From Dastarcus helophoroides (taxonomy: Eukaryota; Arthropoda; Insecta; Coleoptera; Bothrideridae), in the NCBI GenBank assembly GCA_028583605.1, contig CM053327.1:44504059-44568058 (forward strand): DNA of 64,000 bases. Reading direction: 5' to 3'. Under the pieces are notes generated by a model, which searched no databases, was not told the origin of the DNA, and worked only from the letters and a program-made list of their open reading frames with translations. How positions within the stretch are numbered: position 1 is the stretch's first letter; each line of letters begins with the position of its first letter. This document shows positions 1,381 through 63,312 of the stretch, one piece after another. The position numbers were made by a program, and so were the translations under genes.

Positions 1381-1386
1381 ATATTT

Positions 1387-6800: not shown

Positions 6801-7796
6801 GAAGGCAAAATAATATTAGGTTAAAAAGTTGGGTACTTGTGGTTCATCAGTAATGCAACTTTTTTCCCTTGAAATCTTCTCTAAGATTCGCAAATGATCT
6901 CATGGTGGATCCTGATCAAAATGATTTTGGGCTAAAACGTTAGACATTTGACAGTTCATCAGTATTTCAATTGTTTTGCCACGAAATATTCTCTTCTTGG
7001 AAAAAAACCAACAAAATAATCTTAAAATGGGTATTTGGTGGTTCAAGAGGCAGTTGTTTTCCCATGAAATCACAAAAATTTGTAAATGTTCTCGGGGAGA
7101 ATGTCGATCCAAATAATTTTGAGCTAAAACGTTGGGCATTCGATAGTTCATCAGAATTCAATTGTTTGGTCACGAAAAAGTATTCAGAATTCACAAATGT
7201 GCTCTTGGAGGTACAAAGGCAAAATAATATTAGGTTAAAAAGTTGGGTACTTGTGGTTCATCAGTAATGCAACTTTTTTCACTTGAAATCTTCTCTAAGA
7301 TTCGCAAATGTTCTCATGGTGGATCCTGATCAAAATGATTTTGGGCTAAAACGTTACACATTTAATAGTTCATCAGTATTTCAATTGTTTTGCCACGAAA
7401 TATTCTCTTCTTGGAGAAAAACCAACAAAATAATCTTAAAATGGGTATTTGGTGGTTCAAGAGGCAGTTGTTTTCCCATGAAATCACAAAAATTTGTAAA
7501 TGTTCTCGGGGAGAATGTCGATCCAAATAATTTTGAGCTAAAACGTTGGGCATTCGATAGTTCATCAGAACTCAATGGTTTGTTAACGAAAAAGTCTTCA
7601 AAATTCACAAATGTGCTCTTGGAGGTACGAAGGCAAAATAATATTAGGTTAAAAAGTTGGGTACTTGTAGTTCATCAGTAATGCAGCTTTTTTCCCTTGA
7701 AATCTTCTCTAAGATTCGCAAATGTTCTCATTGAGTATCCTGATCGAAATGATTTCAGGGGACAAGTTCTGTATTTCAATTTTTCTATACGATCTA
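3847..7796. mobile_element. Family 1 retroposon with internal satellite, bounded by 11 bp direct repeats
   Basis: The 11-mer TATACGATCTA occurs at 3847-3857 and again at 7786-7796. Just inside the left copy is the family tail and arm (GACGGACTGGCCCTTGATTATC at about 3871, then CCCCTGAAACCAAGAAAG), followed by one partial 161 bp family unit (about 3935-4045). Just inside the right copy is the inverted arm (TTTCAGGGGACAAG at about 7753). The simplest reading is one retroposon insertion of about 3.9 kb whose interior consists almost entirely of a 414 bp tandem array. The array may have expanded after insertion. Confidence 0.7.
4045..7735. repeat. Nine-unit 414-420 bp tandem satellite
   Basis: A landmark (AATATTCTCT) ends at 4080, 4499, 4919, 5333, 5752, 6166, 6580, 6994 and 7408, giving periods of 414, 419 or 420 bp. 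The length classes differ mainly by a 6 bp indel next to AATAAT (AATAATGCTATCTTAAAATGG versus AATAATCTTAAAATGG). Units are nearly identical, so the array is young or homogenised. 414 is a multiple of three, so the same 65-100 codon open frames recur in every unit on both strands. They have no recognisable domain, and I treat them as a by-product of the period and not as genes. Confidence 0.9.
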
Positions 7797-9962: not shown

Positions 9963-10007
<45 letters not shown>

Positions 10008-10011
10008 TGCA
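9322..10011. other. Unique AT-rich sequence with TA microsatellite at the end
   Basis: No gene seen. A TA run occupies about 9966-10002. Confidence 0.45.
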
Positions 10012-14290: not shown

Positions 14291-15132
14291 TTTTGATTAA
14301 TTTAGTTATTGTCTTGTTGATATTTAGATGTAATTTACCACTTTATGTTAATGAATGCGTAGAAATTAAGTAGCAGCATCAATTTACACCGTAGCTCACC
14401 TTGTATACACTTAAATAGATGTAATATTTAAATGTCTTTATAACCGACCCAAGCAACAACGTGCCATTTACCATTCTGCTGCCTTTTAACAATGCACGAT
14501 TTTTTGAAAAACAGCAACAACCTGTCAGGCGAATCGAATTTTTAAATTATTATTTCCCAAGTGTTTATAGCTTAATATTATCCGTTATAATATAAGCAGT
14601 AAATAAAGGTTTATGCTATTGTAATGGTCGGTTGTCAAAGATATCATGAAAAAGTATTGAATTATGTATATTATATACGTTGACTCGAGTTCGGTGGTGA
14701 ATTGTTGTAAAACTCAGCTATTTAGGAGAAAATATCAAGGCCGTCTTGACTGCGCCTTTCTATATCTCGTTCACTATTAAAATGTAAATGTGTCTTGTGG
14801 TTTGCCATAAGTAAACAAAAGAGCGCAGTAACTACGGAATACGTAATGAGGCGTCAATTCTATTAGTTTTTATTGATTTTTTTGCGCTACGCTTGAATAA
14901 CCCAAATTATTTAATAGATGTTGTCATTTGACCAGTATAACTTGTCAGGCTTATATTGCAAGAAATCATCATTTAATTCCACCAGAAGAATGCCTGCAGG
15001 ATAAATATTTTAAAAAATTGGTTTTTGTCCACTAGTTTTTACAAAGCTGAATCTGCAGTAACGTGACAAAACGATCTTGGGCTTTTGATGGAAATTGATG
15101 GCGGCCGGTCATTCAGTTTTGTAACCTCTTTT
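14291..15132. other. Unique AT-rich sequence
   Basis: No gene, RNA gene or in-window repeat match recognised. Confidence 0.45.
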
Positions 15133-17370
15133 TATTTTGGTGGAACGGACTAGTCCTTGGTTACCTTCAAAAATTAAAATACAAATCTTATCCCCTGAAA
15201 CCAAGAAAGGTGGAACGTCCGTCGAAGGCATCTAGTCGGAATATTGGAATTGCTATGTTGCTATTACTTCAAGATGTTTCCCTAACGTGAGGAATGAAGC
15301 ATCGACATTCCGTGAGATGAAAGAGTTACAAAAATTGAAATACAAATCTTGTCCCCTGAAACCAAGAAAGATGGAACGTCCGTCAAAGCCATCTAGAGGG
15401 AGTATTGGAGTTGCTATGTTACTATTACTTCAAGATGTTTCCCTAACGTGAGGAATGAAGCATCGAAATTTTGTGAGATGAGAGAGTTGCAAGAATTGAA
15501 ATACAAATCTTGTCCCCTGAAACCAAGAAAGATGGAACGTCCGTCAAAGCCATCTAGAGGGAGTATTGGAGTTGCTGTGTTGCTATTACTTCAAGATGTT
15601 TCCCTAACGTGAGGAATGAAGCATCGAAATTTTGTGAGATGAGAGAGTTGCAAGAATTGAAATACAAATCTTGTCCCCTGAAACCAAGAAAGATGGAACG
15701 TCCGTCAAAGCCATCTAGAGGGAGTATTGGAGTTGCTATGTTGCTATTACTTCAAGATGTTTCCCTAACGTGAGGAATGAAGCATCGAATTCCGTGAGAT
15801 GAAAGAGTTACAAAAATTGAAATACAAATCTTGTCCCCTGAAACCAAGAAAGATGGAACGTCCGTCAAAGGCATCTATTCGGAGTATTGTAGTTGCTATG
15901 TTGCTATTACTTCAAGATGTTTCCCTAACGTGATGAATGAAGCATCGAAATTTTGTGAGATGAGAGAGTTGCAAGAATTGAAATACAAATCTTGTCCCCT
16001 GAAACCAAGAAAGATGGAACGTCCGTCAAAGCCAACTAGAGGGAGTATTGGAGTTGCTATGTTGCTATTACTTCAAGATGTTTCCCTAACGTGAGGAATG
16101 AAGCATCGAATTCCGTGAGATGAAAGAGTTACAAAAATTGAAATACAAATCTTGTCCCCTGAAACCAAGAAAGATGGAACGTCCGTCAAAGCCATCTAGA
16201 AGGAGTATTGGAGTTGCTATGTTGCTATTACTTCAAGATGTTTCCCTAACGTGAGGAATGAAGCATCGAACTTTTGTGAGATGAGAGAGTTGCAAGAATT
16301 GAAGTACAAATCTTGTCCCCTGAAACCAAAAAAGATGGAACGTCCGTCAAAGCCATCTAGAGGAAGTATTGGAGTTGCTATTACTTCAAGATGTTTCCCT
16401 AACGTGACGAATGAAGCATCGAAATTTTGTGAGATGAGAGAGTTGCAAGAATTGAAATACAAATCTTGTCCCCTGAAACCAAGAAAGATGGAACGTCCGT
16501 CAAAGCCATCTAGAGGAAGTATTGGAGTTGCTATGTTGCTATCACTTCAAGATGTTTCCCTAACGTGAGGAATGAAGCATCGAATTCCGTAAGATGAAAG
16601 AGTTACAAAAATTGAAATACAAATCCTGTCCCCTGAAACCAAGAAAGATGGAACGTCCGTCAAAGCCATCTAGAGGGAGTATTGGAGTTGCTATGTTGCT
16701 ATTACTTCAAGATGTTTCCCTAACGTGAGGAACGAAGCATCGAAATTTTGTGAGATGAGAGAGTTGCAAGAATTGAAATACAAATCTTGTCCCCTGAAAC
16801 CAAGAAAGATGGAACGTCCGTCAAAGGCATCTAGAGGGAGTATTGGAGTTGCTGTGTTGCTATTACTTCAAGATGTTTCCCTAACGTGAGGAATGAAGCA
16901 TCGAAATTTTGTGAGATGAGAGAGTTGCAAGAATTAAAATACAAATCTTGTCCCCTGAAACCAGGAAAGATTAATAAATACAAGGCGTTTCGATAACCAG
17001 CATCTCTCTGAAGATGACAGCTTGGCTATCGAAACGCGTTAGAGCAACCTCTGATGTGTTTTTTAATCTTTCTTGGTTTCAGGTGACAAGATTTGTATTC
17101 AATTCTTGTAACCTCCCTCACGGAATTTCGATGCTTCATTCCTCACGTTAGGGAAACATCTTGAAATAATAGCAACATAGCGACTCCAATACTCCGTTTA
17201 GATGCCTTTGACGGACGTTCCATCTTTCTTGGTTTCAGAGGATAAGATTTGTAATTCAATTGTTGTAACCTCGCTCGCGGAATTTCGATGCTTCATTCCT
17301 CACGTTAGGGAAACTTCTTGAAGTAATAGCAACATAGCAACTTCAATTCTCCGTTTAGATTTGATGGACG
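15133..17370. repeat. Family 1 retroposon expanded as twelve 161 bp units plus inverted end
   Basis: Starts with the family tail (TGGTGGAACGGACTAGTCC). The landmark TCCCCTGAA recurs, ending at 15199, 15360, 15521, 15682, 15842, 16003, 16163, 16324, 16477, 16637, 16799 and 16959, a period of 160-162 bp with one 153 bp unit. Each unit is the retroposon arm (AATACAAATCTTGTCCCCTG, AAACCAAGAAAG) joined to a spacer (GGAACGTCCGTC, GATGTTTCCCTAACGTGAGG). Two spacer types (ATTTTGTGAGATGAGAG and ATTCCGTGAGATGAAAG) partly alternate. From about 16975 the hairpin module follows, then inverted arm and spacer units to about 17370. Open frames of 80-105 codons inside are by-products of the repeats. Confidence 0.85.
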
Positions 17371-17998
17371 CTCCGTTGCGTAAATAGGATGAGAATTTAA
17401 ATTTATGATACCAAATCTAATCTACTCATAATATTTCAGGGGGCGAAATAATCCGTGCGAATATGCCATACTACAAACCGTATTTGCCTAAACAGGTTAC
17501 GGGAATTTAAATGTCTTTAGATCGATGATTTGCATAGAAATTTGCAAGATTCAATTTTACCACAGGATTGCAGTTTCGCCTTCGTTTCTGAAACTCCGCA
17601 AATTATACGCTTCGATTGTTCGATTTTAACGTATCAAATGTTATTCTGAATGTGGACATGAAGTTACGAAACTCGCATATTTCCACATTTACGTCGGATT
17701 ATTCACCGCTGCATCGATTATATTCGGAATTAAATTATGCTTTTGTTACAGTTTGTTCTACATTCTTAGATAATTTGCCTAAAATTCAAATATATTAAGC
17801 CGAACATTCATGGTTCTATAATTGGGCATAAGTTCTGCTGTAAATAATAGTATTAAGTTATTTAATACTGATCTGCCTACAACAGATTTATTTCACGTAG
17901 AAAAGGTCATATGATCATGTATTTTAATTTTTGGATCATTTTTATATATTACTCCTTTAAGTTCTAGGATCGTAGTAAAGTATACTGTAAAAGATTAA
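17371..17998. other. Unique sequence
   Basis: No gene supported. A 60-codon open frame at 17616-17798 has no recognisable features and the composition of the background. Confidence 0.45.
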
Positions 17999-18702
17999 AA
18001 ATTGAAATACAGAACTTGTCCCTGAAATCAAGAAAGATTAAAAAACACAACAAAGGTTGCTCTAACGCGTTTCGACAGCCAAGCTGTCATCTTCAAACAG
18101 AGAGAGTTTCTCTCTCTCAAAGACATCTAGATAGAGTATTGGAGTTACTATTACTTCAAGATGTTTCCCTAACGTGGAGAATGAAGCATCGAAATTCCGT
18201 GAGATGAGAGAATTACAACAATTGAAATACAAATCTTGTTCCCTGAAACCAGGAAAGATTAAAAAACACAACAGAGGTTGCTCTAACGCGTTTCGATAGC
18301 CAATATCTCTCTGATGATGACAGCTTGGCTGTCGAAACGCGTTAGAGCAATCTCTGTTGTGTTTTTTAATCTTTCCTGGTTTCAGGGAACAAGATTTGTA
18401 TTTCAATTGTTGTAATTCTCTCATCTCACACAATTTCGATGCTTCATTCCCCACGTTAGGGAAACATCTTGAAGTAATAGCAGCACAGCAACTCCAATAC
18501 TCCCTCTAGATGACTTTGACGGACGTTCCATCTTTATTGGTTTCAGGGGACAAGATTTGTATTTCAATTGTTGTAATTATACATAGCAACAGTAGTAACA
18601 GAGCAACCCTTGTTGTATTTTTTAATCTTTCTTGGTTTCAAGGGACAAGTTCTGTATTTCAATTTTTGAAGATAACCAAGGACCAGTCCGTTCCATCAAA
18701 AA
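17999..18702 (+). mobile_element. Family 1 retroposon, nested palindromic copy D
   Basis: In order: arm and hairpin (minus orientation, 18060-18100), spacer, second arm and hairpin (to about 18305), then the mirror image with the hairpin in plus orientation at 18311-18338, arm, spacer, arm, and finally the tail TTTGAAGATAACCAAGGACC and GTCCGTTCCATC running into 12 adenines at about 18702. The adenine run after the tail, seen also at other copies, defines this end as the 3' end of the RNA-derived unit. The mirror structure is what template switching or twin priming during target-primed reverse transcription could produce. There is no coding capacity. Confidence 0.75.
18311..18338 (+). ncRNA. 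Hammerhead-like hairpin of family 1 (best-conserved example)
   Basis: CTGATGA at 18311-18317 is identical to the conserved hammerhead box. After one extra T (18318) comes a perfect 6 bp stem, GACAGC (18319-18324) with GCTGTC (18328-18333) around a TTG loop, then GAAAC. In a standard hammerhead the stem starts directly after the box, so the extra T would be a bulge. Stem III would be minimal (C-G around GC) with the cleavage site after GTT. Penelope-like elements are known to carry minimal hammerheads. Activity is inference only. Confidence 0.4.
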
Positions 18703-18879
18703 AAAAAAATAAAAACATTAAATTAATTAAATTTGGCTATAAGTGGGTAAATCAAATATGACCCGGAATTACTGTCATGTTGCCATGAGGGCATTGGGAG
18801 TGTGCGCATACTCTTAGATATGTAGGTAGGGATATCGCGTGACTTCCTGCGCTCAAGCGAATTCCGTTCTCGCCGTTTG

Positions 18880-19307: not shown

Positions 19308-19668
19308 ATAAGGAGTTTGATAATGAAGGTTTCCACGGCCGGCCAGTCAGTACAGGATATACTTCTTCTGGGATTGGACCGTGTCAAAGAACTATTAAAA
19401 GTGTTCGACGTTTCGCCCACCATCGTAGGAGGCTTCTTCAGGAACAATTCAGAAGAGTTTCGCCTCTGGTATGGTAGACATGCTGAATGTTTTGAAATTG
19501 GCCTTTTCATTCTTTTATTTTTGCATATTCCCTCATATTGCTCTTTTCATTTATTGTTTCTTTTCTTTGTTCCTAAAGAAGCCCCCTACGATGGTGGGCG
19601 AAACACTTTTAGTAGTTCTTTGACACGGTCCAATCCCGGAAGAAGTATATCCTGTAATAAGGAGTTTG
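19308..19668. mobile_element. Snapback retroposon family 2, copy 1, with 12 bp target duplication
   Basis: ATAAGGAGTTTG occurs at 19308-19319 and 19657-19668 and brackets a 337 bp element. Its arms face each other: GATATACTTCTTCTGGGATT with GGACCGTGTCAAAGAACTA at about 19355-19400, and the inverse at about 19610-19652. Each arm contains a hairpin; read outward it is CTGAAGAAGCC or CTAAAGAAGCC, a stem, then GGGCGAAAC. No functional coding frame was found. The organisation parallels family 1, but the sequence is unrelated outside the hairpin core. Confidence 0.75.
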
Positions 19669-19682
19669 GCAGAATTAGTCCT

Positions 19683-19860
19683 TGATTGTTCAAAAATTGA
19701 TAGACAAAGCTTGGCCCCTGAATCCAAGAAAGCTAAAAAAACAACATCAGTAACTAAATATCTCTCTGAAGATGATAGCTTGGCTACCGAAACACGTTCA
19801 GTTGCTTTTTTAATTTTTTCTTGATTTCAGGGGCAATCGTTGTATATCAACTTATAAAGA
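19683..19860 (+). mobile_element. Family 1 retroposon, degenerate copy E
   Basis: Both arms are present but eroded (GGCCCCTGAATCCAAG left, TTGATTTCAGGGGC right). A hairpin at about 19760-19795 reads CTCTGAAGATGATAGC, TTG, GCTACC, GAAAC, with one broken pair in the stem. No tail or target duplication could be assigned. Confidence 0.6.
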
Positions 19861-20032
19861 TATTTATCGAAATTAACAAGCTATGATTTTATTTCCCAAT
19901 GATTGTTGTTTTCTGACACCTTACAGACCCGCAGCATTTAGGTGTGCAGGTTGTGCCCCCATAAACGCAATTTGACTGATTGTCTATGCTTAGACTCATT
20001 AATTTTTTCCTGTGTTGGGAATACTTTTTGGA

Positions 20033-21520
20033 TCATGAAATTTCGACGAAATTGCTAGCTTATTTTGTAAAAGGAACAAATCAGTTCTTTTTTTCGCCAA
20101 ATTTCCACATTTGAACTAAAATGTAATTCTAATCTTCGAAATTTTGAAAAAAAGTTGAAATTTCTAAATCGTTTGAGATCATGAAATTGCGACGAAAGAG
20201 CTTGTTTATTTTGTAGAAGGGACGAATCAGTTCAGCTTCAACTTTTTTAGCAAAATTTCCACCTTTGAAGTAGAACGTCGTTAGAATCTTCCAAATTTTG
20301 AGACAAAGTTGAAATTTCTGTATCAATTAAGCAGAGGCGGCTGGTCTTAAAGAGCGCAAGAGCGCGCACTTCTCGTAAAATGAGCAATCTATTCTTTTCG
20401 GTTTAGTGTAAAAAAACTTGGATTTATCACATTTTTAAACACAAAATAATGACATACTAATTAACTAATAATACTTGTGAGTGACTTGAAATAAAGTACA
20501 CAAACGTTTGATTCCATTATATTAAATATTATAAGGAAATTTAAATAAGTTGGTGCCCGCAGAATTATGCAACTAGCGTGGCTGCCGTGTGATGCAGCCA
20601 CGGTATGCGGAGAAATAATTTACAGAACACCACGTTAAAGCTAGCTCGGGGTACGCCGCTCCGCGCTTATGCGTTATTGCCAAATGGTGAGTACGAGTCA
20701 GAGGTTGGACTGTGTATTGAGGGTTTATGAGCTTAAATGCGTAGGTACCGGCTGATCTGATTGCGATTGCTAATTGTACTGCTTACAGACCTAACTGCCA
20801 ATACACACAAAGAGATAGCAGTACCAATTCTAGGGTCTAATTATTAATTTGTTAATTTGGATTTAAACAATTTTGATGAGAAAGTAATGAACACTTTATT
20901 TCTTTAAAAGATCGTAGAGAAGATTTTGTTTAAAAAAATAATTTTTTGTTGTGTTTTTGTAGATTTTAATTAGAACTTTATAATAAAATATATTTCATTT
21001 TCAAATGCAGTTTTCATGAAAAAGTGATATAATTTTATTCCTATGAAAGCAAACAATTTTAATTAAGTAACCCAGAGCCGTAACGGCGTGCAACCGTACA
21101 GAGTATTTTAAAGGGGCTCAGAAATGTCGACGTACTCGCTGAAAATAATTTAGAGTTGATAACCCAAAAATATTTTGGAGGTTATAAGATGTTAATTAAA
21201 TTTAGTTCGTAAAAATACTATTAAATATCACACCTTCTGTATCACTTTTGTTTCTCTTAAATTTAATACCTTGCTATGCCACTAGAGTCTTAACTACTAA
21301 TATTTTTGCATCTGCGCACCCCCTCTCAAAAAGTCAGCAGCCGCCATTGCAATTAAGATCATGAAATTGTGACGAAAGAGCTCCTTTATTTTGTCAAATG
21401 AAAAAATCAGTTCAGCTTCAGTTTTTTTCGCGAAATTTCCACCTTTGAACTAGAATGTCATTCAAATCTTCCGAATTTTGAGAAAAAGTTGACATTTCTA
21501 AATCAGTAGATATAGAAATT
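20033..21520. repeat. 147 bp tandem repeat, interrupted by the hAT MITE
   Basis: Units begin GATCATGAAATT at about 20033, 20180 and 21357 and continue with CGACGAAA, TTATTTTGT, AAATTTCCACMTTTGAA and GTTGAAATTTCT. The hAT copy 3 sits between the second and third units, so the tandem array is older than that insertion. Confidence 0.7.
20332..21349. mobile_element. hAT-type MITE, copy 3, with perfect 8 bp target duplication
   Basis: 1,018 bp, termini CAGAGGCGGCTGG and CAGCCGCCATTG. Flanking CAATTAAG at 20324-20331 and again at 21350-21357 is an exact 8 bp duplication, which supports the hAT assignment for the whole family. The exact duplication and the interrupted 147 bp array suggest this is the youngest of the three copies. 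No transposase is encoded. Confidence 0.92.
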
Positions 21521-21612
21521 TTGTCCCCTGAAACCAACAAAATGTAAAAAAACCCAACAAAAGTTGCTCGATTTGTATATCAATTTTTGAAGATTACCAA
21601 GGACCACCAATA
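21515..21612. mobile_element. Family 1 retroposon fragment F
   Basis: A shortened copy: arm (TTGTCCCCTGAAACCAA), a remnant of the AAAAGTTGCTC module, then the right arm joined directly to the tail (GAAGATTACCAAGGACCACC). The hairpin is deleted. Confidence 0.55.
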
Positions 21613-26071: not shown

Positions 26072-26254
26072 TACAACAGTTTTGGTGGTTTGGTGGTCCT
26101 TGGTTATATTCAAAAATTGAAATACAAATATTGTCCCCTGAAACCAAGAAAGATTAAAGAATAACAGAAGTTGCTCTAACCTAACAACCTTTGTTGTGTT
26201 TTTTAATATTTCTTGGTTCCAGGGGACAAGTTTTGTATTTCAATCTACAACAAT
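26072..26254 (-). mobile_element. Family 1 retroposon, copy G, with 9 bp flanking duplication
   Basis: TACAACAGT (26072-26080) and TACAACAAT (26246-26254) flank a 165 bp element with the tail (TTGGTGGTCCTTGGTTAT) on the left and arms either side of a short centre that has lost the hairpin (GTTGCTCTAACCTAACAACC). It is a compact snapback form. Confidence 0.65.
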
Positions 26255-27949: not shown

Positions 27950-28028
27950 TTACGCGCTAGAGCAACCTTTGTTGTGTTTTCTAATCTTTCTTGGTTTCAG
28001 AGGACAAGATTTTTATTTCAATTTTTAG
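27950..28028 (+). mobile_element. Family 1 retroposon, single arm H
   Basis: Only one arm: GCGCTAGAGCAACC, TTTGTTGTGTTTTC, CTTGGTTTCAGAGGACAAG, TTTCAATTTTTAG. The hairpin is truncated immediately to the left, and the tail is absent. Confidence 0.6.
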
Positions 28029-33101: not shown

Positions 33102-33342
33102 CACTTTTTAGTTCAAGATATACTAGTTCCGGGATTGGACCGTGTCAAAGAACTACTAAAAGTTTCGCCCATCATCGTAGGGGGCTTCTTCAGGAACAAA
33201 GAAAAGTAACAATAAATAAAAAGAGAAATATAAGAGATTATGCAAAAATGAAAGAATGAAAAGGCCAATTTCAAAACATCAGAGCACGGTAACCCAGTAT
33301 GTCCACCATACCAGAGGCGAAACTCTTTTGCACTTTTTAGTT
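33102..33342. mobile_element. Snapback family 2, single-arm copy 2, with 12 bp target duplication
   Basis: CACTTTTTAGTT at 33102-33113 and 33331-33342 brackets a 217 bp element. Its first 100 bp match the arm of the 19.3 kb copy (GGGATTGGACCGTGTCAAAG, AACTACTAAAAGTTTCGCCC). The hairpin read on the minus strand is CTGAAGA, an extra A, then GCCC and GGGC around an 11-base loop, then GAAAC. This copy has no inverted second arm, so it may show the basic unit of the family. Confidence 0.75.
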
Positions 33343-36640: not shown

Positions 36641-36642
36641 TA

Positions 36643-36782
36643 AAAATTAAAATAAAAATCTTGTCCCTTGAAACCAAGAAAGATTAAAAAAACAAGACAG
36701 AGGTTGCTCTAACGCATTTCCCAAAGCAAACTCTGTTGTGTTTTTGAATCTTTCTTGGTTTCAGGGGACAAGATTTGTATGA
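36643..36782. mobile_element. Family 1 retroposon, copy I
   Basis: Two facing arms (CTTGTCCCTTGAAACCAAG and CTTGGTTTCAGGGGACAAG) with GAGGTTGCTCTAACGCATTT at the centre. The hairpin is deleted and the tail is absent. Confidence 0.65.
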
Positions 36783-38091: not shown

Positions 38092-40510
38092 CCGTATTTT
38101 GAGAAAAAGAGATTTCGAAAACATTGAGAAACAGAGACTTCGAAAAAATTGAAAAAAAGGAGTGATTTCGAAAAAACTTGAAAAAAAATTTTGAAAACAA
38201 GAGATTTCAAAAATAATGAATTCATCAAAAGTTCTCCAAAGAAAATAAAATTTAAAAAAAAAAAGTCAGATTTTGACAATAGATTGAAACCCAGAACAAA
38301 TTGAAAACCTGAAATTTTTAGACAAATTTGATTTTTTTCAAAAAATGTGAATATCAAAAAGAAATTGTAAAAATTATCTGGAACATTGAAATACAAAACT
38401 TGTCCCCTGAAACTAAGGTTGTTTTTTTTTTGGTGGAACGGACTGGTCCTTGGTTATCTTCAAAAATTAAAATACAAAACTTGTCCCCTGAAACTAAAAT
38501 TGGTTTCAGGGGACAAGTTTTGTATTTCAACTTTGTTCCACCAAAAATAAAAACCAGCAAAAACTGGAAACTTAAAAAAATTTGTTGAACTTTCAAAAAG
38601 TCGAAGTTTTCCAGTAAAGAAGCACAAAGTCAAATTTTAGGAAAAATTTCAAGAAAAAAGTCTAAATTTTAAGTAGAGCTCGAAATTTCGATGAAAAACT
38701 TGTAATTTTCCAGAGAGATTTAAATTTTGAAAGGAAATTTGAAATTTCGAGAAGACGATTTAAAAAATATCCAAATTTTCTGATAAATTCGAATTTTGAG
38801 AAAATAAATAATTTCGAAAATGTTGATAAAACTTCCAGTTTCGAGAAAAGTATTGAATTTAAAAAAAAATGGTCAAATTTCTAGAAAAAGCCGTATTTTG
38901 AGAAAAAGAGATTTCGAAAACATTGAGAAACAGAAAGAGCTTTCGAAAAAATTGAAAAAAAGGAGTGATTTCGAAAAAATTGAGAAAATTGAAGAAATTA
39001 AAAAATTTTGAAAACAAGAGATTTCAAAAATAATGAATTCATCAAAAGTTCTCCAAAGAAAATAAAATTTAAAAAAAAAACGTCAGATTTTGACAATAGA
39101 TTGAAACCCAGAACAAATTGAAAACCTGAAATTTTTAGCCAAATTTGAATTTTTTCAAAAAATGTGAATATCAAAAAGAAAATGTAAAAATTATCTGGAA
39201 CATTGAAATACAAAACTTGTCCCCTGAAACTAAGGTTGTTTTTTTTTTGGTGGAACGGACTGGTCCTTGGGTACCTTCAAAAATTAAAATACAAAACTTG
39301 TCCCCTGAAACTAAAATTGGTTTCAGGAGACAAGTTTTGTATTTCAACTTTGTTCCACCAAAAAAAAAACCAACAAAAACTAGAAGCTTAAAAAAATTTG
39401 TCGAACTTTCAAAAAGTCGAAGTTTTCCAGTAAAGAAGCACAAAGTCAAATTTTAGGAAAAATTTCAAGAAAAAACTCAAAATTTTAAGTAGAGCTCGCA
39501 ATTTCGATGAAAAATTTGTAATTTTCCAGAGAGATTTAAATTTTGAAAGGAAATTTGAAATTTCGAGAAGACGATTTAAAAAATATCCAAATTTTCTGAT
39601 AAATTCGAATTTTGGGAAAATTCCCAAAATAATTTCGAAAATGTTGATAAAACTTCCAGATTCGAGAAAAGTATTGAAGTTAAAAAAATGGTCAAATTTC
39701 TAGAAAAAGCCGTATTTTGAGAAAAAGAGATTTCGAAAACATTGAGAAACAGAGACTTCGAAAAAATTGAAAAAAAAGGAGTGATTTCGAAAAAATTGAG
39801 AAAAATGAAGAAATTAAAAAATTTTGAAAACAAGAGATTTCAAAAATAATGAATTCATCAAAAGTTCTCCAAAGAAAATAAAATTTAAAAAAAAAACGTC
39901 AGATTTTGACAATAAATTGAAACCCAAAACAAATTGAAAACCTGAAATTTTTAGCCAAATTTGAATTTTTTCAAAAAATGTGAATATCAAAAAGAAAATG
40001 TAAAAATTATCTGGAACATTGAAATACAAAACTTGTCCCCTGAAACTAAGGTTGTTTTTTTTTTGGTGGAACGGACTGGTCCTTGGTTATCTTCAAAAAT
40101 TAAAATACAAAACTTGTCCCCTGAAACTAAAATTGCTTTCAGGGGACAAGTTTTCTATTTCAACTTCGTTCCACCAAAAATAAAAACCAACAAAAACTGG
40201 AAACTTAAAAAAAATTGTTGAACTTTCAAAAAGTCGAAGTTTTCCAGTAAAGAAGCACAAAGTCAAATTTTAGGAAAAATTTCAAGAAAAAACTCAAAAT
40301 TTTAATTAGAGCTCGAAATTTCGATGAAAAATTTGTAATTTTCCAGAGAGATTTAAATTTTGAAAGGAAATTTAAAATTTCGAGAAGACGATTTAAAAAA
40401 CATTCAAATTTTCTGATAAATTTGAATTTTGAGAAAATGCCCAAAATAATTTCGAAAGAAAAGAGAATATTGACGAAACTTTCAGCTTCGTGAAAGGTAT
40501 TAAATTTAAA
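38092..40510. repeat. Three tandem units of about 800-820 bp, each carrying a family 1 retroposon
   Basis: CCGTATTTTGAGAAAAAGAG begins units at 38092, 38891 and 39710. Each unit contains the same retroposon with the tail GGTGGAACGGACTGGTCC in the middle (about 38384-38543, 39203-39362 and 40016-40177), an arm to the left ending in TGAAACTAAGG, and a perfect TGAAACTAAAATTGG palindrome centre. All three retroposon copies share private changes, so one insertion was amplified together with its AAATTTCGA-type surroundings. Frames inside are artefacts. Confidence 0.85.
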
Positions 40511-44405: not shown

Positions 44406-44590
44406 TCGAGCAGTCTATGTTTGATGGAACGGACTGATCCTTGGTTATCTTCAAAAATTGAAACACAGAACTTGTCCCCTGAAACCAAGAAAAATTAAAA
44501 AACAGCAGCAGCAGAGCAACCTTTGTTGTGTTTTTTAATTTTTCTTGGTTTCAGGGGACAAGTTCTGTGTTTCAATTTTCGAGCAGTCTA
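44406..44590 (-). mobile_element. Family 1 retroposon, copy M, with perfect 12 bp target duplication
   Basis: TCGAGCAGTCTA occurs at 44406-44417 and 44579-44590. The 161 bp between them starts with the tail (TTTGATGGAACGGACTGATC), then the arm (CTTGTCCCCTGAAACCAAG), a short CAGCAGCAG centre in place of the hairpin, and the inverse arm ending TTTCAATTTT. The asymmetry (tail on one side only) shows that the element is not a simple terminal-inverted-repeat transposon. Confidence 0.85.
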
Positions 44591-45862: not shown

Positions 45863-45986
45863 TGAAACGCGTTAGAGCAACCATTGTCGTGTTTTTTAAT
45901 CTTTCTTGTTTTCAGGCGACGAGATTTGTATTTCAATTTTTTGAAAATAACCAAGGACCAGTCCGTTCCACCAAAAAAAAAAAAAC
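45863..45986 (+). mobile_element. Family 1 retroposon, 5'-truncated copy N ending in poly(A)
   Basis: Starts in the hairpin at GAAACGCGTTAGAGCAACC, continues through the arm (CTTGTTTTCAGGCGACGAG) and the tail (CCAAGGACCAGTCCGTTCC), and ends in ACC followed by a run of 13 or so adenines. This is the typical form of a 5'-truncated retroposed copy. Confidence 0.75.
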
Positions 45987-53340: not shown

Positions 53341-53371
53341 CTTTGTTTGCGTTTAGGTTAGAGCTAAGAAC

Positions 53372-53545
53372 AACAAAGGTTGCTATAACGCGTTTCGACA
53401 ACCAAGCTGTTATCTTCGGAGAGATAGATAGAGCTAGAGCAACCTTTGTTGTGTTTTTTAATCTTTCTTGGTTTCAGGAGACAAGTTTTGTATTTCAATG
53501 TTTGAAGATAACCAAGAACCAGTCCGTTCCACCAAAAAAAAATCG
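53372..53545 (+). mobile_element. Family 1 retroposon, copy O, with poly(A) end
   Basis: The left arm is truncated (starts ACAACAAAGGTTGC), with a hairpin in minus orientation (CCGAAGATAACAGC, TTG, GTTGTC, GAAAC). A short AGATAGATAGAGC centre follows, then the right arm, the tail CCAAGAACCAGTCCGTTCC and nine adenines. Confidence 0.75.
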
Positions 53546-55755: not shown

Positions 55756-56034
55756 CTTTCGTTTTTAAAAATTGAAATACCGAACTTGTCCCCTGAAACC
55801 AAGAAAGATTAAAAAACACAACAAAGTTTGCTTTAGCGCGTTTCGACAGCCAAGCTGTCATCTTCAGAGAGAAAAGAAAGTTTCTCTTTGAAGATGACAG
55901 CTTGGATGTCGAAACGCGTTAGAGCAAACTTTGTTGTGTTTTTTTAATCTTTCTTGGTTTTAGGGGACAAGTTCTGTATTTGAATTTTTGAAGATAACCA
56001 AGGACCAGTCCGTTCCATCAAACTTTCGTTTTTA
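55756..56034 (+). mobile_element. Family 1 retroposon, copy P: complete snapback form with 12 bp target duplication
   Basis: CTTTCGTTTTTA at 55756-55767 and 56023-56034 brackets 255 bp. In order: left arm (AAATTGAAATACCGAACTTG), the AAAAACACAACAAAG module, a hairpin in minus orientation (55837-55867: CTGAAGA, T, stem GACAGC/GCTGTC, GAAAC), a 20 bp centre, a hairpin in plus orientation (one stem mismatch), right arm, and the tail ending CCAGTCCGTTCCATCAAA. This is the best reference copy of the family in the window. No coding capacity. Confidence 0.88.
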
Positions 56035-56039
56035 TTTTA

Positions 56040-57430
56040 ATGTAAATATTCAAAAGTTTTTCAAATCTCAGTTTTTTTTTTCAAGGTAGAGACTTTAAAA
56101 AGTTGACTTTTTTCAAAATTGTGACTATCAAAATTTCGAGATTTTTCTTTAAAATTGGTATTTAAAAAAAATGAAGGGATTTCAAAAGAGAAGATTTTTG
56201 AATGAAAATGCCAAAATTAGAATTTTGAGAATATGCCATATTTTATCAAAAAAGACTTATTTTAGGAAAAAGAATAAAAATTTCGAGAAAAACTTCAATT
56301 TGGAGAGAAAAGTCTAAATTTCCAGAAACTTTCAGAATTCAGTCAAAATTTCTAGACATTCTGATTCTAAAAGCTCGGAATTTTTACCAAAAAAAAAGAT
56401 CCAAATTTCGACAGTCGACGGTCAATTTTTTAAGTCGAATTTTGCAATAGAATGAAAATTTGAAAAAAAAAACGAATCGAAAATCCCAAAAAAGACATAT
56501 TTCGGGTAAAAAGCGAAGCTTTGAGAAAACTGTAGAAAGGTCCCACAAAAAAAGTCAAATTTTTAAAATAGACGTTTACGAAAAAGACGAATTTGGAAAA
56601 AAAATCCAAATTTTAAGAAAAAGACGAACATCGAAAACAAAATTTGCTTTTAGACTCATTTATGTTGACATAAAAGTATCACTCTCAAGATGATAGCTTA
56701 GCTATCGAAACACGTTAGTTGTATTTTTAATTTTTCTTGGTTTCAGGGGACAAGATTTGTATTTCAATAAAGGTCGAAATGTCGAAAAGACGACTTTGAG
56801 AAAAATGTCGAAATTTCGAGAAAAAGACGAATTTCAAGAATAAAATCTAAATTTGCTAAAATAAATTAAAAAACAAATGGAAATTTCAAAAAAAAAAGAT
56901 CGAATTTCGAAAAAATAGATCAAAATTTCGAAATAACAGATTAATTTTGAAAAAATATTATCATTTCCAGAAATATTAAATACCGAATTTTAAGATGAAC
57001 GTGAAAATTTCGATAAAAAGTTAAGCTTTAAAAAAAATTCTGTTTCTAGCAGGCAGACATTTTCAAAGAGAATCTAATGTTAAGAAAAATAACTAAATTT
57101 CGGGAAAAATTTAAATTTTGAGCAAACGTTCAAAATATCTAAAAGTTCTAATTCTAACAGGTACAAAATATCAAAAAGAATCTAACGTCAAACAAAATTA
57201 CGAAATTTGGAGAAAAACTTGGAATTTAAGAAAGAAAATTCTGAGAGAAAGGCAAATATTGAGAAAATAGTCAAATTTTGCAAATAAAAGCGAAATTAAA
57301 AAAAGACGAATTTTGAAAAGAAAAAAATTAAAATTTAGAAAGAAAACGAATTCCGAGAAAAAGTTAAGGTTGCGCATAGAAAGTCAAATTTTGAGGATAT
57401 ACTTTTACAACAAAAAATTAATAAATAATA
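56040..57430. repeat. AAATTTCGA-type block (A-rich strand)
   Basis: Words such as AAATTTCGAGAAAAAGACGA prevail. The strand bias is opposite to that of 54.6-55.75 kb on the other side of the retroposon. Open frames are Lys-rich artefacts. Confidence 0.6.
56684..56770 (+). mobile_element. Family 1 retroposon, truncated copy Q with covarying hairpin
   Basis: Hairpin stem GATAGC (56692-56697) and GCTATC (56701-56706) around TTA, followed by GAAAC; then the arm (CTTGGTTTCAGGGGACAAG) ending TTTCAAT. Compared with GACAGC/GCTGTC in other copies, the C-G pair is replaced by T-A, so pairing is kept. Confidence 0.65.
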
Positions 57431-57576
57431 GTTGAAATACAAATCTTGTTCCCTGAAGCCAAGAAAGATTAAAAAACACAGGAAAGGTTGCTTGTTTCAG
57501 GGGATAAAATTAGTATTTTATATATATATAATCAATTCCCTTATACCGTAAGGTGTCGGGATTGGTATTCTCTATT

Positions 57577-59220
57577 TTATTCACAAAATTTTTTCCATTC
57601 CTTTTTGTTTAGCGCTAAAATTTTTGCTTCTTTTAGGTTTAATTGTCTCTTTCGGATTAATTTATCAATTATGTCATCCCATCTTTCTTTAGGTCTGCCT
57701 CTACGTCTCCGGTCCGACGTTCTTGCTTCCCATATTTTCTTTACTTGCATGTTATCTTTCATCCTTTGCATATGTCCCCACCAACCTAATTGTTTTTCTT
57801 CGACAATTTCTAATACAGGCTTAGCATCCAGTTCTTCCCTCACTTTTTGATTTCTTATTCGATCTCTTCTACTTATTCCCTTTATCGCTCTCAAGAACTT
57901 CATCTCGACTGCTTGTATCCGGCTTTTCATTCTCTCCGTTAAAACCCAGGTTTCACTTCCAAATAGTAGTATCGGCTGGAAGATAGTCTTGTATACCAAC
58001 ATTTTCGTATTTTTGGATATTTCTTTCTTCTTGACTATGGTTGCACACATACTGTAATATGCTTTAAGTGCTTTCTCTATTCGTTCATTGATGTCTCTAT
58101 CCTGATTTCCTTTATTATCTATTATTACTCCTAAATATTTGAATTCCTTGACCTGCTGCATATCCTTATTTTCCAATCGTATATTTATTTTTTTATTTTC
58201 ATCTTCTGTTATCGCCATTACTTTTGTTTTATTGACATTTATTTTCATTTGCTTAGATTCTAGAGCATCTTTCCATATTTCTAAGTTAGTTTGTAGGTCT
58301 TCGGGTGAATTGGCCACTATTACTATATCATCTGCAAATGCACATTCTTTTATACAGACTTTTTGTAGATTGTAGTATCCTACTTGTAGGCCTGTTGTTT
58401 TAGTACATGTTTGTTTGAGTATGTCATCTATCAGGATAATGAATAGTAATGGGCTAAGTATTCCTCCCTGTCGTAAACCATCTCTTGTGTAGAAAGTAGA
58501 AGACTGCATATTTCGCGTTCTGACGTAATTTGCATTTTCCTCATATATGCTTTTTATTCCAGCAATTAATTTTCGGCTGACTCCTCGTTGTTCCAAACTT
58601 ATCCATATTTCTTTTCTGGGTGCTCTGTCGAAAGCCTTTTCAAGATCAATGAACGCTAGATATGCCTTTCTCCGTTGTCTTAATATTTTATCTGTAAGTT
58701 GTTTCATCGTGAATATATGGTCCTGTATACTATGGCCTCTTCTAAATCCACTTTGGGATACACTTAATTGCGTTTCTATGACTAAACGGAGCCTGTTTAC
58801 TAACACCCTTTCATATATCTTTGCTACCGTGCTCAATAAAGTTATACCTCGATAATTTTGGCATTGTTTTCTATCTCCCTTTTTATATATGGGCATAATA
58901 ACACCTATTCCCCAATCTTTAGGTATGTTTCCTTTTATCCATGCCTTATTACAAATGTTGTACAAGAGTTTTACACCTTTCTTTCTCATGTGTTTAATCA
59001 TATCTGGTGTTATTCCATCATGTCCGGGTGCTTTTCCACATTTTGTTGCCTTGATTGCTTCTTCAACTTCCTCTATCGTAAGTACTTCAATTTCTTCATC
59101 TGCTATTGTGTCAATTGTTGTTACTTCTTTGCCTTCTTGTGTCTCTGTTTCCAGTGGATTTAATAGTTCGTAAAAGTATTCTTTCCATCTGTTCATAATT
59201 AAATTCTCATCTTTTAGCAA
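57577..59220 (-). CDS. LINE ORF2, reverse transcriptase part (broken from the endonuclease)
   Basis: A 547-codon open frame. The order of motifs is: KAPGHDGITPDMIKH at about residue 62, ENYRGITLLS-like QNYRGITLLS at about 122, SGFRRGHSIQDHIF at about 155, motif A FIDLEKAFDRAP at about 190, GLRQGGILSPLLF at about 250, and the catalytic FADD box (CAFADDIVIVAN) at about 293. EFKYLGVIID follows near 362, and the C-terminal block GWWGHMQRM with RRRRGRPKERWDD lies near 477-515. It makes cDNA at the nicked target. The listed ATG is only an internal methionine: coding similarity continues upstream in another frame (KLFYKAVKQRR), so a frameshift lies at about 59218. It ends at the TAA/TGA at 57577, about 56 bp from the element's 3' end. 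Confidence 0.85.
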   Translation of the reverse strand: MLKDENLIMNRWKEYFYELLNPLETETQEGKEVTTIDTIADEEIEVLTIEEVEEAIKATKCGKAPGHDGITPDMIKHMRKKGVKLLYNICNKAWIKGNIPKDWGIGVIMPIYKKGDRKQCQNYRGITLLSTVAKIYERVLVNRLRLVIETQLSVSQSGFRRGHSIQDHIFTMKQLTDKILRQRRKAYLAFIDLEKAFDRAPRKEIWISLEQRGVSRKLIAGIKSIYEENANYVRTRNMQSSTFYTRDGLRQGGILSPLLFIILIDDILKQTCTKTTGLQVGYYNLQKVCIKECAFADDIVIVANSPEDLQTNLEIWKDALESKQMKINVNKTKVMAITEDENKKINIRLENKDMQQVKEFKYLGVIIDNKGNQDRDINERIEKALKAYYSMCATIVKKKEISKNTKMLVYKTIFQPILLFGSETWVLTERMKSRIQAVEMKFLRAIKGISRRDRIRNQKVREELDAKPVLEIVEEKQLGWWGHMQRMKDNMQVKKIWEARTSDRRRRGRPKERWDDIIDKLIRKRQLNLKEAKILALNKKEWKKFCE

Positions 59221-59621
59221 CGCGCCTTCTTTGCTTCACTGCTTTATAAAATAGCTTGCGATCTCCTTTAATTGTCTCCTCCATTTTTTTCCCAAAACAT
59301 TCCCATGCCTTTTGTTTAGCTTCCAAAACCATATTTTTTACTTTGGTTCTTCTCTCCTTATACAAAGTGTATTTTTGTGCGGTGTTATTATTTAAGTACT
59401 CTTTCCACGCTTGTTTTTTTAATTTAACTTCTTTTTTGATTTCATCGTTCCACCCGGCAGTTAACTTTTTATTGGCGTTGGTTGTAATCGTGCCACATGC
59501 TTGTTTAGCTGCTTCTATTACTACTCCTTAAATATTTGCCATATGTCTTCAATATCTTTTTGTTCAATCTCCTTTTCTATATTACTTATTTTTTCCTCAA
59601 GAATTTGGTGACAACTGTTTG
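59221..59621 (-). pseudogene. LINE ORF2, frameshifted linker between endonuclease and RT
   Basis: All frames are interrupted, but coding sequence can be followed by changing frame twice. Frame one runs HQILEEKISNIEKEIEQKD to DIWQIFKE (about 59620-59535). The next runs from VVIEAAKQACGT through GWNDEIKKEVKLKKQAWKEY to CFGKKMEETIKGDRKLFYKA (about 59530-59222). The AGWNDE / KKQAWKEY type sequence is the usual linker of RTE-like ORF2. Frameshifts are placed at about 59630, 59530 and 59218; a sequencing error could explain one of these but hardly all three. Confidence 0.75.
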
Positions 59622-60629
59622 CTATATATTTTCTCTTAATCTGTATGTTTTAATATTTTCTTTTTTTACTGGTGCAGTTTCGTGTCGTTCGTTGTCACTC
59701 CTACACCTCTTCTTTTTCCTAATTTTTGCTACAACCAGGTAATGATCACTAAATATTTCCGCACTTCTTTTGACTCTTACATCCGTGATCGATTTCCTAT
59801 TATTTCTTTGCACAAGTACGTAGTCAATTATGGATCTTTCTTTTCTGTTTTCCGCTATTCTTGTAAATTTATGTATATCCTGGTGTTCATAAAACGTATT
59901 TGTTATTATGAGATCGTTCAAGATGCAATATTCTATCATTCTTAACCCATTGTTGTTTATTTTTGTTTCCCCACAGTTTCCAATCACATTTACATTTCTA
60001 TTCTCTCTTTTACCCACCCTACTGTTAAAATCTCCCATTACGATAATTTTACCTTTACCTGTCTCTGTGGCCAATGTTAGTTCCTCCCAGAATTCATCTT
60101 TATTACTCGCTAAATCATCTTCATTTGGTCCATACACTATTATTATGCATATTCGTTCCCCATATATATCATCAAATTCTATTTTTAGTATTCTTTCAGA
60201 AATGCCTTCCCAATTTAGTATATTATCAACTAATCCTTTCTCTATTATGCACCCAACCCCTGCCGCAGCATGTTTATTTTGTTCTACTCCACTGTATATT
60301 AAAAAGTGTCCATTTTCTAGCACTAGTTCCCCTTGCCCCTTCTTCTTCGTTTCTGTTATTGTTAATATTTGTATCCCTGTCATTTCAAATTCTTCTATTA
60401 GTTCCTCCTCTTTTCCCCTTAGTCCTCTAACATTCCATGTTCCCACTTTCCAAATTTCTTTTCCTGTTTTTTCCTTTTTATTTATTTTTTCTATTGTTGT
60501 GTTTTTATGTGTTTTCGTATCCATTTTCATTTCCTTGTTCGTCATCCTACTATTTACCTCTTTAGATTTATTGCTCAGTTTTTTGAATTTGTATTTTCTA
60601 ATTTTTCCTTGATTTTGTTCCATTTCCAA
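59622..60629 (-). CDS. LINE ORF2, APE-type endonuclease part
   Basis: A 335-codon frame starting at ATG 60629, with a basic N-terminal extension of about 65 residues, then the endonuclease/exonuclease/phosphatase fold. Motifs are: GTWNVRGL at about 68 (metal-binding asparagine), ETKKKG at about 96 (catalytic glutamate), YGPNEDD at about 167, GDFNSRVG at about 201 (Asp and Asn), RSIIDYVLV at about 270, and SDHYLV at about 298 (terminal Asp-His pair). The enzyme nicks target DNA to prime reverse transcription. All catalytic positions look intact. The frame ends early just after the domain at a frameshift (about 59630) instead of running on into the RT. Confidence 0.88.
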   Translation of the reverse strand: MEMEQNQGKIRKYKFKKLSNKSKEVNSRMTNKEMKMDTKTHKNTTIEKINKKEKTGKEIWKVGTWNVRGLRGKEEELIEEFEMTGIQILTITETKKKGQGELVLENGHFLIYSGVEQNKHAAAGVGCIIEKGLVDNILNWEGISERILKIEFDDIYGERICIIIVYGPNEDDLASNKDEFWEELTLATETGKGKIIVMGDFNSRVGKRENRNVNVIGNCGETKINNNGLRMIEYCILNDLIITNTFYEHQDIHKFTRIAENRKERSIIDYVLVQRNNRKSITDVRVKRSAEIFSDHYLVVAKIRKKKRCRSDNERHETAPVKKENIKTYRLRENI

Positions 60630-61354
60630 GTTTCTCCATCAACTATTATCTTGTTATATCCCATTTTGATATTCTTACCCATGCGTTTCTCCTCTTCTGC
60701 TTTATTTTTTAGTTGTCTCTGCTTCTCCCTTTCTTTATGCGTCAAGTCTTCATTTATGAAAATTTTTTCATTAATTTTTCTAAGCTTTGATTTGTTTTTC
60801 ATAATCCGTTTCTTTTCATTTTCATTTTGCAATTTCACAAGATATATATTTCTACCAATGTTATAAGTTTCTTCAACTTTGGTTTGTATTTCTAATTTTT
60901 CTTTAAAGAAATTTTCCATTTCTCTAATTAAAATTGCATTGTCGTTTGTATTTACTGTTAGACCGTTGACAATTATATTATTTTTCCTTTTATCTTTTTC
61001 GATCCACTCCAAATTATTGCTTATTATTTTTATATCCTTTTTCATTTTCTCGTTTTCTTTTATAATTCTCTCGTTTTCTTCTCTTAGTTTGTTGTTTTCG
61101 ATTTGGATTTTTCTAATGTCGTTATTGTATTTTTTCTGTTCATTTTTTATTTCTTGCATTTCTTCTCTTATATCCTGCATCATACTTAGTATAAGATCAA
61201 GCTTATCCTCGTTATCAATTGTTTTTGTTTTTATTGGCGTTCTCGACATTTTTTTTGTTCTCGTTAAGGTTTCTTCTCGTACCCTTTTTCTCTTGCCTCC
61301 TTCGTCTGTGGAGGACTCCTCGATGTCGGCGTCTCTCATATAATTCTTGTCCAT
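60575..61354 (-). CDS. LINE ORF1, RNA-binding coiled-coil protein
   Basis: 259 codons from ATG 61354. Residues 1-45 are charged and basic (GGKRKRVREE). Residues about 50-108 form a heptad-rich coiled coil (DLILSMMQDIREEMQEIKNE and on). About 115-185 resemble the RRM-like domain of L1-type ORF1 proteins (NNIIVNGLTVN, FFKEKLEI, YLVKLQNENEKKRIM). A C-terminal segment contains IFINEDLTHKEREKQ, as in many insect LINE ORF1 proteins. It would bind the element's RNA as a trimer or multimer. The frame is intact and overlaps the start of ORF2 in a different frame, implying re-initiation or leaky translation. Confidence 0.8.
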   Translation of the reverse strand: MDKNYMRDADIEESSTDEGGKRKRVREETLTRTKKMSRTPIKTKTIDNEDKLDLILSMMQDIREEMQEIKNEQKKYNNDIRKIQIENNKLREENERIIKENEKMKKDIKIISNNLEWIEKDKRKNNIIVNGLTVNTNDNAILIREMENFFKEKLEIQTKVEETYNIGRNIYLVKLQNENEKKRIMKNKSKLRKINEKIFINEDLTHKEREKQRQLKNKAEEEKRMGKNIKMGYNKIIVDGETWKWNKIKEKLENTNSKN

Positions 61355-61738
61355 GTTTATTTCTTTATTTCAGCGCTGATTCCTAATCTGATTACTATAT
61401 GTTGTGATGCACGTCTTTTCCACGAAAGAAACCGTTCCTCGAAGGTCACGGTTTCTTATCTCTTATCAGAGCTAATACAAATGCAGCGTCTTACCTTAAA
61501 TTACTAATTATTGCACTAATCTGTTTGTCTCTAGTGTTGTTTTAATCACTACACTGTTCTTATTGTTTACACCTTTGGTTTACCACAATTTTCAGAAATA
61601 ATCGCTCATTAATTCCCGTAGAATTTGGGTTTATTAATGGAGCATATATTTAGCAGCTGCTTATGCACGCACCATCACCACTTCGAAATTAGTATTTTAA
61701 TTTTTGAAAATAACCAAGGACCAGTTCGTTCCACCAAA

Positions 61739-61964
61739 AAAATTTCCATTTTAATTACAAGTCACAACCTTCTTTATATCAAGTGAAATGTTATTTTAAA
61801 ATATCTGACAGTTTTCTAAAAAATCCCTATTGTTAAAAATACCCGAAAAAAAAATATCCTCGGAGCCCTGAGTAAAAAACAAGCAGACATTTTTATTTAT
61901 CGCCCAAAGATTTATTAACAAAATTTGAAGACAAAAATTAAATAAAAAAAACTTGGATTTTAAT
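61739..61964. other. Unique short spacer
   Basis: Nothing recognised. Confidence 0.4.
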
Positions 61965-63049: not shown

Positions 63050-63175
63050 TACAGAGCCTGCCCTGCAGACTACTTCCTCGTGAGATGAGTGATTGTCTTC
63101 TGTTTAATATAAAACACTTACTAAAGCCATAAATTACTAAAAGTTCGATTTATCACATTTTTACGCATAAAATAT
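63050..63175. mobile_element. Eroded fragment related to the hAT MITE
   Basis: CTCGTGAGATGAGTGATTGT, TTTAATATAAAACACTTA and TTTATCACATTTTTACGCAT follow the order of the 5' part of the hAT MITE (1885-1955 in copy 1) with many substitutions. The termini are missing. Confidence 0.45.
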
Positions 63176-63179
63176 GATT

Positions 63180-63312
63180 TCCTAAAACCAAGAAAGATTA
63201 AAAAACACAACAAAGGTTGCTCTAAAGGTTAATCTTTCTTGGTTTCATGGGACAAGTTCCGTATTTCAATTTTTGAAGACAACCAAGGACCAGTCCGTTC
63301 TACCAAAGAAAA
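63180..63312 (+). mobile_element. Family 1 retroposon, copy S, with tail
   Basis: Left arm (CCTAAAACCAAGAAAGATT, AACACAACAAAGGTTGCTC), then directly the right arm (CTTGGTTTCATGGGACAAG), the tail GACAACCAAGGACCAGTCC and GTTCTACCAAAG followed by adenines. The hairpin is deleted at the turn. Confidence 0.75.

Follow-up and report, generated by a model that had tools for sequence, protein, structure and literature searches.

The loci with mirror-image arms in the analysed window, a stretch of 64,000 nucleotides (64 kb) of Dastarcus helophoroides DNA, are very probably non-autonomous, internally empty elements of the Penelope-like type, in which two pseudo-LTRs (pLTRs) lie head to head and which would have been primed on both strands of the target. 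This reading is supported mainly by the anatomy of the copies, on which the membership of this first family rests, because no autonomous copy with its tail was found in the ~340 kb formed by the window and the sampled stretches. The designation "non-autonomous Penelope-like" had been proposed in the initial annotation, and it is supported by the hammerhead in the arm, the inverted arm shorter by ~33 nt, the one-sided tail and the variable duplications, as well as by the often palindromic head-to-head junctions, the unrelated DNA between arms, and a second family of the same plan with a resident autonomous element carrying an RT and a GIY-YIG-like endonuclease. Features beyond those given in that annotation are the second family, the arm hammerhead and a reading frame that stays open across the tail. 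A genome with dozens of short mirror insertions per Mb would provide a natural record of Penelope insertion.

Arms, tails and target duplications of the first family

The plan of the family is illustrated by the element at 55756..56034. It is bounded by an exact 12-bp repeat, CTTTCGTTTTTA, which forms the left (55756..55767) and the right (56023..56034) target-site duplication, both given on the plus strand. According to the arm alignment, the left arm (55768..55872, minus strand) is an inverted pseudo-LTR without tail, and the right arm (55883..56022, plus strand) is a direct pseudo-LTR with tail; the one-sided tail covers 55990..56022 (plus strand), and its end is CCATCAAA. A near-palindromic head-to-head junction, seen in the sequence without strand assignment, lies between the arms at 55873..55882.

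The arm CTTGTCCCCTGAAACCAAG gave 47 matches in the window at three or fewer mismatches, against a mean of 0.01 expected, and the tail CCAAGGACCAGTCCGTTCC gave 13, against a mean of 0.00 expected. The blastn self-search of the window produced 22 clusters, corresponding to 19 first-family loci after two copies represented by a cluster at each end, the 3.9-kb one and the interrupted one, had been counted once each and cluster 52771, which consists of the captured segment alone, had been excluded, so the earlier estimate of about twenty loci sharing arms holds. The copy at 44406..44590 (minus strand) has a 12-bp duplication and arms differing at 2/57 positions, as established by flank and arm comparison. 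At 3847..7796 (minus strand), tandem-repeat and flank comparison revealed arms enclosing a tandem array of 414 bp × 8.9 and an 11-bp duplication; this 414-bp satellite (4044-7755, ~9 units), which lies inside the element and within its duplication, matched the window alone and had no counterpart in the stretches sampled from elsewhere in this genome. Composite copies are located at 15131..17374 (minus strand), where 161-bp units made of the captured segment and the arm core are repeated 11.3 times, with the tail at 15131, and at 17997..18710 (plus strand), where the self-search found several units on either side of the mirror. The copy at 38382..40166 (minus strand, arm matches) lies within a ~816-bp unit present as three tandem units, and the copies at 38-40 kb have, in their opposite flank, an extra scrap of 13 nt from the end of the tail.

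Arm alignment also located copies at 1098..1386 (minus strand; near-match duplication by flank comparison) and 26081..26244 (minus strand), a lone arm without tail at 27952..28026 (plus strand), a lone arm with tail at 45864..45980 (plus strand) and, together with the self-search, another lone arm without tail at 56673..56768 (plus strand). From the self-search came the copies at 19676..19862 (minus strand), with its tail partly kept, at 21509..21606 (plus strand), with its tailed arm largely missing, and at 53370..53542 and 63170..63309 (both plus strand), with damaged left ends, and copy classification identified the one at 36642..36780 (no strand assigned), in which neither side is tailed. 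According to self-search, domain and flank comparison, the copy at 57427..61739 (plus strand) is interrupted by a non-LTR retrotransposon; the latter lies at 57521-61686 on the minus strand, contains RVT_1 and Exo_endo domains, and, together with its own 13-bp duplication, AATTAGTATTTTA, occupies 57508-61699. Among other repeats of the window, satellites were observed at 33733-35677 and 46036-48304, with 306-bp units, and 16-/315-bp units based on ACCTTGAACTCACGTG, and a (CTCTA)n run of 1.5 kb occupies 21650-23163, in a region of strong GC skew.

Outside the window, the sample comprised 25 stretches of contig C1 (63.65 Mb), each 10 kb long and evenly spaced except for the first five, which fall within its first 90 kb, one stretch of 3.5 kb, and one stretch of 10 kb from each of contigs C2-C4, giving 276 kb without N. 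Twenty of the 34 first-family tailed ends fall in these 276 kb (~72 per Mb), which by extrapolation suggests thousands of short mirror copies per genome. The outer ends of left arms lie at reference 96-108 in the window and at 97-114 in the wider comparison of tailed ends (the script admitted 92-116), and tailed arms end at reference ~139, the excess of ~33 nt over left arms being the tail. When the downstream DNA of 19 tailed ends was compared, a single pair had DNA in common (373 bp, 77%, starting 17-39 nt beyond the tail).

The exact flanking repeats listed in the initial annotation were confirmed in place at 44406/44579 and 55756/56023 (12 bp each) and at 3847/7786 (11 bp), and the three were equalled by 0/240 cross-paired flanks. 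Its near-match at 1085/1381 is indeed identical at 11/12 positions, although it is AT-rich and 2.5% of cross-pairs equal it; the one at 26072/26246 comes to 7 bp only, which is within chance (22% of cross-pairs). Among the 33 tailed ends of the wider comparison, 23 have a left arm inside the searched distance, which excluded copies longer than ~2.5 kb, the 11-bp copy 3847/7786 being thus treated separately; within these 23 elements, the copy of the 816-bp unit is counted three times and a single left arm twice. A flanking repeat above the level of 95% of 506 cross-pairs was present in 11/23 elements and absent in the other 12/23. The supported repeats, some of them AT-rich or with mismatches, range in length from 9 to ~14 bp, in agreement with the variable duplications of roughly 8-15 bp expected of a Penelope-like element. 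Examples are AACTTAAGTTTTTT in stretch L029 (12 bp provided that AA is element sequence), AAATTCACCAA in L027, which is part of a longer match, CATTACTTT in L029 and CTGGTATTT in L032.

The claim that the tail is present on one side only proved to be a rule with exceptions: of 25 head-to-head copies, 22 are one-tailed, two are two-tailed (L018 and L035), and one (window 36642-36780) is tailless. At least 22 one-tailed copies were obtained in 43/200000 trials under random pairing of the ends. The 25 copies were hand-picked from 35 rows, with the addition of the long copies at window 3847 and 57427; L019 was scored as one-tailed by combining its row with a separately mapped tailed end, partial tails (reference 122-126; two window copies and L035) were scored as tails and the 13-nt tail scrap of the copy at 38 kb was not, and the composites at 15-17 kb and 18 kb, the copies at 53370 and 63170, and duplicate or overlapping rows were left out.

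Hammerhead, reading frame and a second family

The arm of the first family is organised as a hammerhead with an ATG in stem II, ~60 nt, and the 33-nt tail. It starts with CTGAAGA, a 6-bp stem II, GAAA, the palindromic ACGCGT and a 4-bp helix I, an arrangement that, judging by its sequence, corresponds to a minimal type I hammerhead of putative activity. Eleven copies differ from the reference by 1-14 mismatches in 45 positions, against 19-22 for the best matches in five simulated sequences. In an alignment of ten of them, from which 18278 (14 mismatches) was excluded, 87% of cells pair, three pairs are changed on both sides, and the pairing of stem II is kept through two-sided changes, with C-G to U-A in 4/10 copies. 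The covariation controls were mixed: the doubly changed cells were reached by 3/500 shuffles, the number of doubly changed pairs by 58/500, and the number of further pair types by 429/500. A shift of the alignment by three columns likewise gave three doubly changed pairs, the share of paired cells then being 47%.

In the element at 55756, the left-arm hammerhead (55828..55872, minus strand) has C in place of the pre-cleavage U, and the right-arm hammerhead (55883..55927, plus strand) has T in place of the first core C, the core residues and nucleotide roles being those that we take to apply here. Both hammerheads, altered in or beside the core, are probably dead, the right-arm one because its first core C is T. 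The Rfam search of this element gave zero hammerhead matches, and no hammerhead match at the gathering score was obtained for the first-family arms; microRNA matches in Rfam were below the cut-offs and were rejected as a likely reflection of the hairpin shape. Separately, a 380-bp repeat at 10006-10760 and 61961-62952, which forms a tandem arrangement at 62 kb, occurs in both orientations at 10 kb and is present also in L016, L022 and L040, matched Hammerhead_HH9 weakly (at most 30.9 bits against a cut-off of 52) and is possibly a third hammerhead-bearing family.

The first-family consensus frame starting from the ATG of stem II is open through the tail (MTAWLSKRVRATFVVFFNLSWFQGTRFVFQFLKITKDQSVPPKK). 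Frames were likewise open in 919/5000 and 903/5000 shuffles for the two families (~18%), and the codon-position pattern is absent in the arms, where minor letters amount to 0.069/0.098/0.092 at positions 1/2/3; an open frame by itself is thus weak evidence of coding. The search with the 44-aa peptide, which was blind to full-length proteins, gave zero matches, the tail and the exact hammerhead each had 0 matches in viral contigs, and the arm had 2 matches in genome contigs, approximately the chance level estimated for a 19-mer in 257 Gb. Loose hammerhead patterns, found in 1 and 8 viral contigs, were attributed to chance from their surroundings.

The second family is represented in the window by an element at 19308..19668 (minus strand), which has a 12-bp duplication (CAAACTCCTTAT), a hammerhead, a 31-nt tail on one side and an inverted arm (88.7% over 97 aligned columns), and by a partial arm at 33110..33194 (minus strand). 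The former has an open frame whose ATG lies in stem-loop II, and its sequence is distinct from that of the first family. At 19657-19680, this element abuts the extreme end of a first-family tail.

The importance of this family lies in the recovery of its autonomous copy. Located in stretches L037/L035 and flanked by a 13-bp duplication (TAGAATGGTCCTT), it consists of a pLTR, an ORF starting in the hammerhead, a Penelope-type RT, a predicted GIY-YIG-like endonuclease and a pLTR, with its 5' end ~11 bases ahead of the hammerhead core. In L037, the ORF extends from the hammerhead ATG across the tail and contains a single in-frame stop, and by count its frame continues as the RT frame at the L037/L035 border. 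The L035 RT matched RVT_1 at 1.5e-12, and in its search, which scored 7982 candidates, 4344 proteins reached E 0.001 or better; in the best 120 of the 4344, many were unnamed and the named ones were mostly uncharacterized animal proteins, with insects prominent, including one named as a predicted GIY-YIG endonuclease, and P0053 was listed with PF01541. The sequence GVYRVPCSCGSVYIGETGRSFKTRISEH lies downstream of the RT in a different frame, and the segment around it matched P0053 at 8.4e-59 within the set of the best 120 proteins; zero direct Pfam matches and no meaningful PDB match were obtained for this segment. No ORF was detected in the copies in L028 and L038, which have a single tail and are flanked by duplications of 14 bp and 11 bp, respectively; all three second-family head-to-head copies are one-tailed.

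Possible origin of the mirror arrangement

Copies of this kind could arise if a Penelope-type protein, supplied in trans, bound the pLTR RNA and cut the target in a staggered fashion. Reverse transcription would then begin inside the RNA at two sites, each serving one target strand: one at the end of the tail (CCACC, ~125 nt past the A of the ATG) and the other ~33 nt upstream of it. The two cDNAs would meet and be joined by a few filler bases, giving the mirror, and DNA trapped between the cDNAs, or a jump back to the start site, would yield the long composite copies. The units of the 161-bp tandem array (15168-16971) are joined at reference ~107, which is the tailless start site, as would be expected if the RT jumped back there, and the array may reflect repeated template jumping.

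We tentatively suggest that the Penelope start sites are ordered, one per target strand, and that the one-sided tail marks a two-strand insertion, an idea that stands some way short of even odds; if the start sites are indeed strand-ordered, each short mirror copy records one insertion event. The counts argue against random pairing of the start sites. In the Poseidon element PAc of Anolis carolinensis, both target strands are cut and extended, and the start site is equal between the strands in vitro, according to the account in PMC11167929, which itself states that the mobilization steps await validation; given this equality, the one-tail rule implies that some ordering is needed in the animal.

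A different route to the mirror, self-priming, in which the first cDNA would fold back, copy itself towards the start and halt ~33 nt short, is conceivable but rather doubtful. It was preferred, with an antisense template, by the authors of the Adineta vaga study (PMC3846280), and the junctions of several of our copies are palindromic and head to head; the one-tail rule (22/25) is compatible with a fixed stop. The arms of one copy are also closer to each other than arms of different copies (distance 0.118 vs 0.139; 20/20000 permutations over 19 of 20 elements, the remaining one having too few shared columns), with 873/40320 permutations in the window alone. Against this, an arm's own partner is the nearest arm in just 4/19 copies, and 47/149 within-copy differences (0.32) have their minor allele in two or more other elements, a value above the 0.20 given by a model of private mutations and below the 0.41 observed between copies. 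The sharing of variant letters is thus intermediate, and the within-copy differences are compatible with one template as well as with two. Two-strand priming is preferred here for two reasons: in vitro, cutting and extension take place on both strands (PMC11167929), and in the copies the spacers differ, as often do the inner ends of the two arms.

The inner ends of the arms vary, the commonest position being reference 1-3 (18/57 arms), which is the upstream edge of the hammerhead, near the 5' start of the autonomous second-family copy; in at least those arms the template would have been uncut at the hammerhead. Cleavage as the step that sets the arm ends was considered and rejected: in the window, 9/21 inner ends, hand-listed by eye, piled up close to the cleavage site (reference 36-43), and 0/15 ends were at the cleavage site in the fresh stretches (ends within reference 10-68, of 30 arms from stretches outside the window). 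The counts thus lend no support to hammerhead cleavage as the determinant of the cDNA end. The role of the Penelope hammerhead is called unknown in PMC7761336.

Alternative identities and comparison with known systems

An origin as retrozymes, in which a hammerhead-bounded circular RNA is copied into tandem multimers, appears very improbable. The metazoan non-LTR retrozymes described in PMC7229834 and PMC7761336 resemble the first family in being small and non-coding and in having a type I hammerhead, and they differ from it in their tandem organisation, from dimers up to multimers, in their canonical hammerheads and in having circular RNAs. The single tandem array of 161-bp units would fit, as would the tandem, GC-poor organisation and duplications of >4 bp reported in PMC7229834, but the hammerhead core was not found within that array, many copies are head to head, and 0/15 fresh-copy ends fall at the cleavage site. 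The "retrozyme-like" option of the initial annotation finds no support past the common ribozyme type.

Mobilisation as a SINE or by a LINE, with a poly(A) tail, is less probable again. The variable duplications would agree with it, as would the A-run past the tail, which the initial annotation called poly(A): seven or more A follow in 11/34 ends, three of these 11 coming from the single 816-bp unit, but just 3-4 A in 16/34, which makes the run a weak argument for retroposition. Moreover, the left end is fixed in inverted orientation, and the anatomy is common to the resident Penelope-like element. The least probable identity, and one that the mirror arms had evoked, is a DNA transposon of the MITE or foldback type, mobilised by a transposase; inverted arms, small size and direct flanking repeats agree with it, whereas the ends are as a rule unequal, one being longer by 33 nt, the duplications range from 9 to ~14 bp, the arms contain a hammerhead, the second family of the same plan is linked to an RT, and neither identical terminal inverted repeats, a constant short duplication nor a transposase partner was seen in the sample.

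The preferred Penelope-like reading is in line with the likeness between the two resident families, which share a pLTR hammerhead, a frame through the tail, a one-sided tail and an inverted arm, with duplications of 11-14 bp in the second; they differ in pLTR and tail sequence, in the autonomous copy known for the second family, and in the position of the ATG, in stem-loop II in the second and at the start of stem II in the first. In PAc, the ORF begins at hammerhead stem II and the tail lies between the two RT start sites (PMC11167929). Cleavage follows the ATG by 26 bp in PAc and by 27 nt, in our own count, in the first family, and the RT start lies 111-118 nt into the ORF in the former vs ~125 in the latter; inverted solo pLTRs occur in the first family and are absent from the main-text account of PAc (PMC11167929).

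In the literature available to us, the expression "nonautonomous Penelope" occurs once in the text of PMC6685494, and "inverted pLTR" once in that of PMC8969392. The closest description is that of A. vaga, whose Penelope elements have target duplications of 8-10 bp, palindromes at their inverted junctions, solo pLTRs, and captured DNA lying between pLTRs, and where in Pen2a and Pen3a the inverted pLTR is shorter by 37 bp and one pLTR has an optional 31-bp tail (PMC3846280). The first family resembles Pen2a/Pen3a in its shorter inverted pLTR, one-sided tail, palindromic junctions and captured DNA. Its duplications reach ~14 bp, compared with 8-10 bp in A. vaga, and it carries a hammerhead, a word absent from the available text of PMC3846280. 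Pen2a and Pen3a are described as low in copy number and located mostly around an ORF, whereas the first family is numerous, and it most likely represents a known kind of element in an abundant form that is ORF-less in the copies seen.
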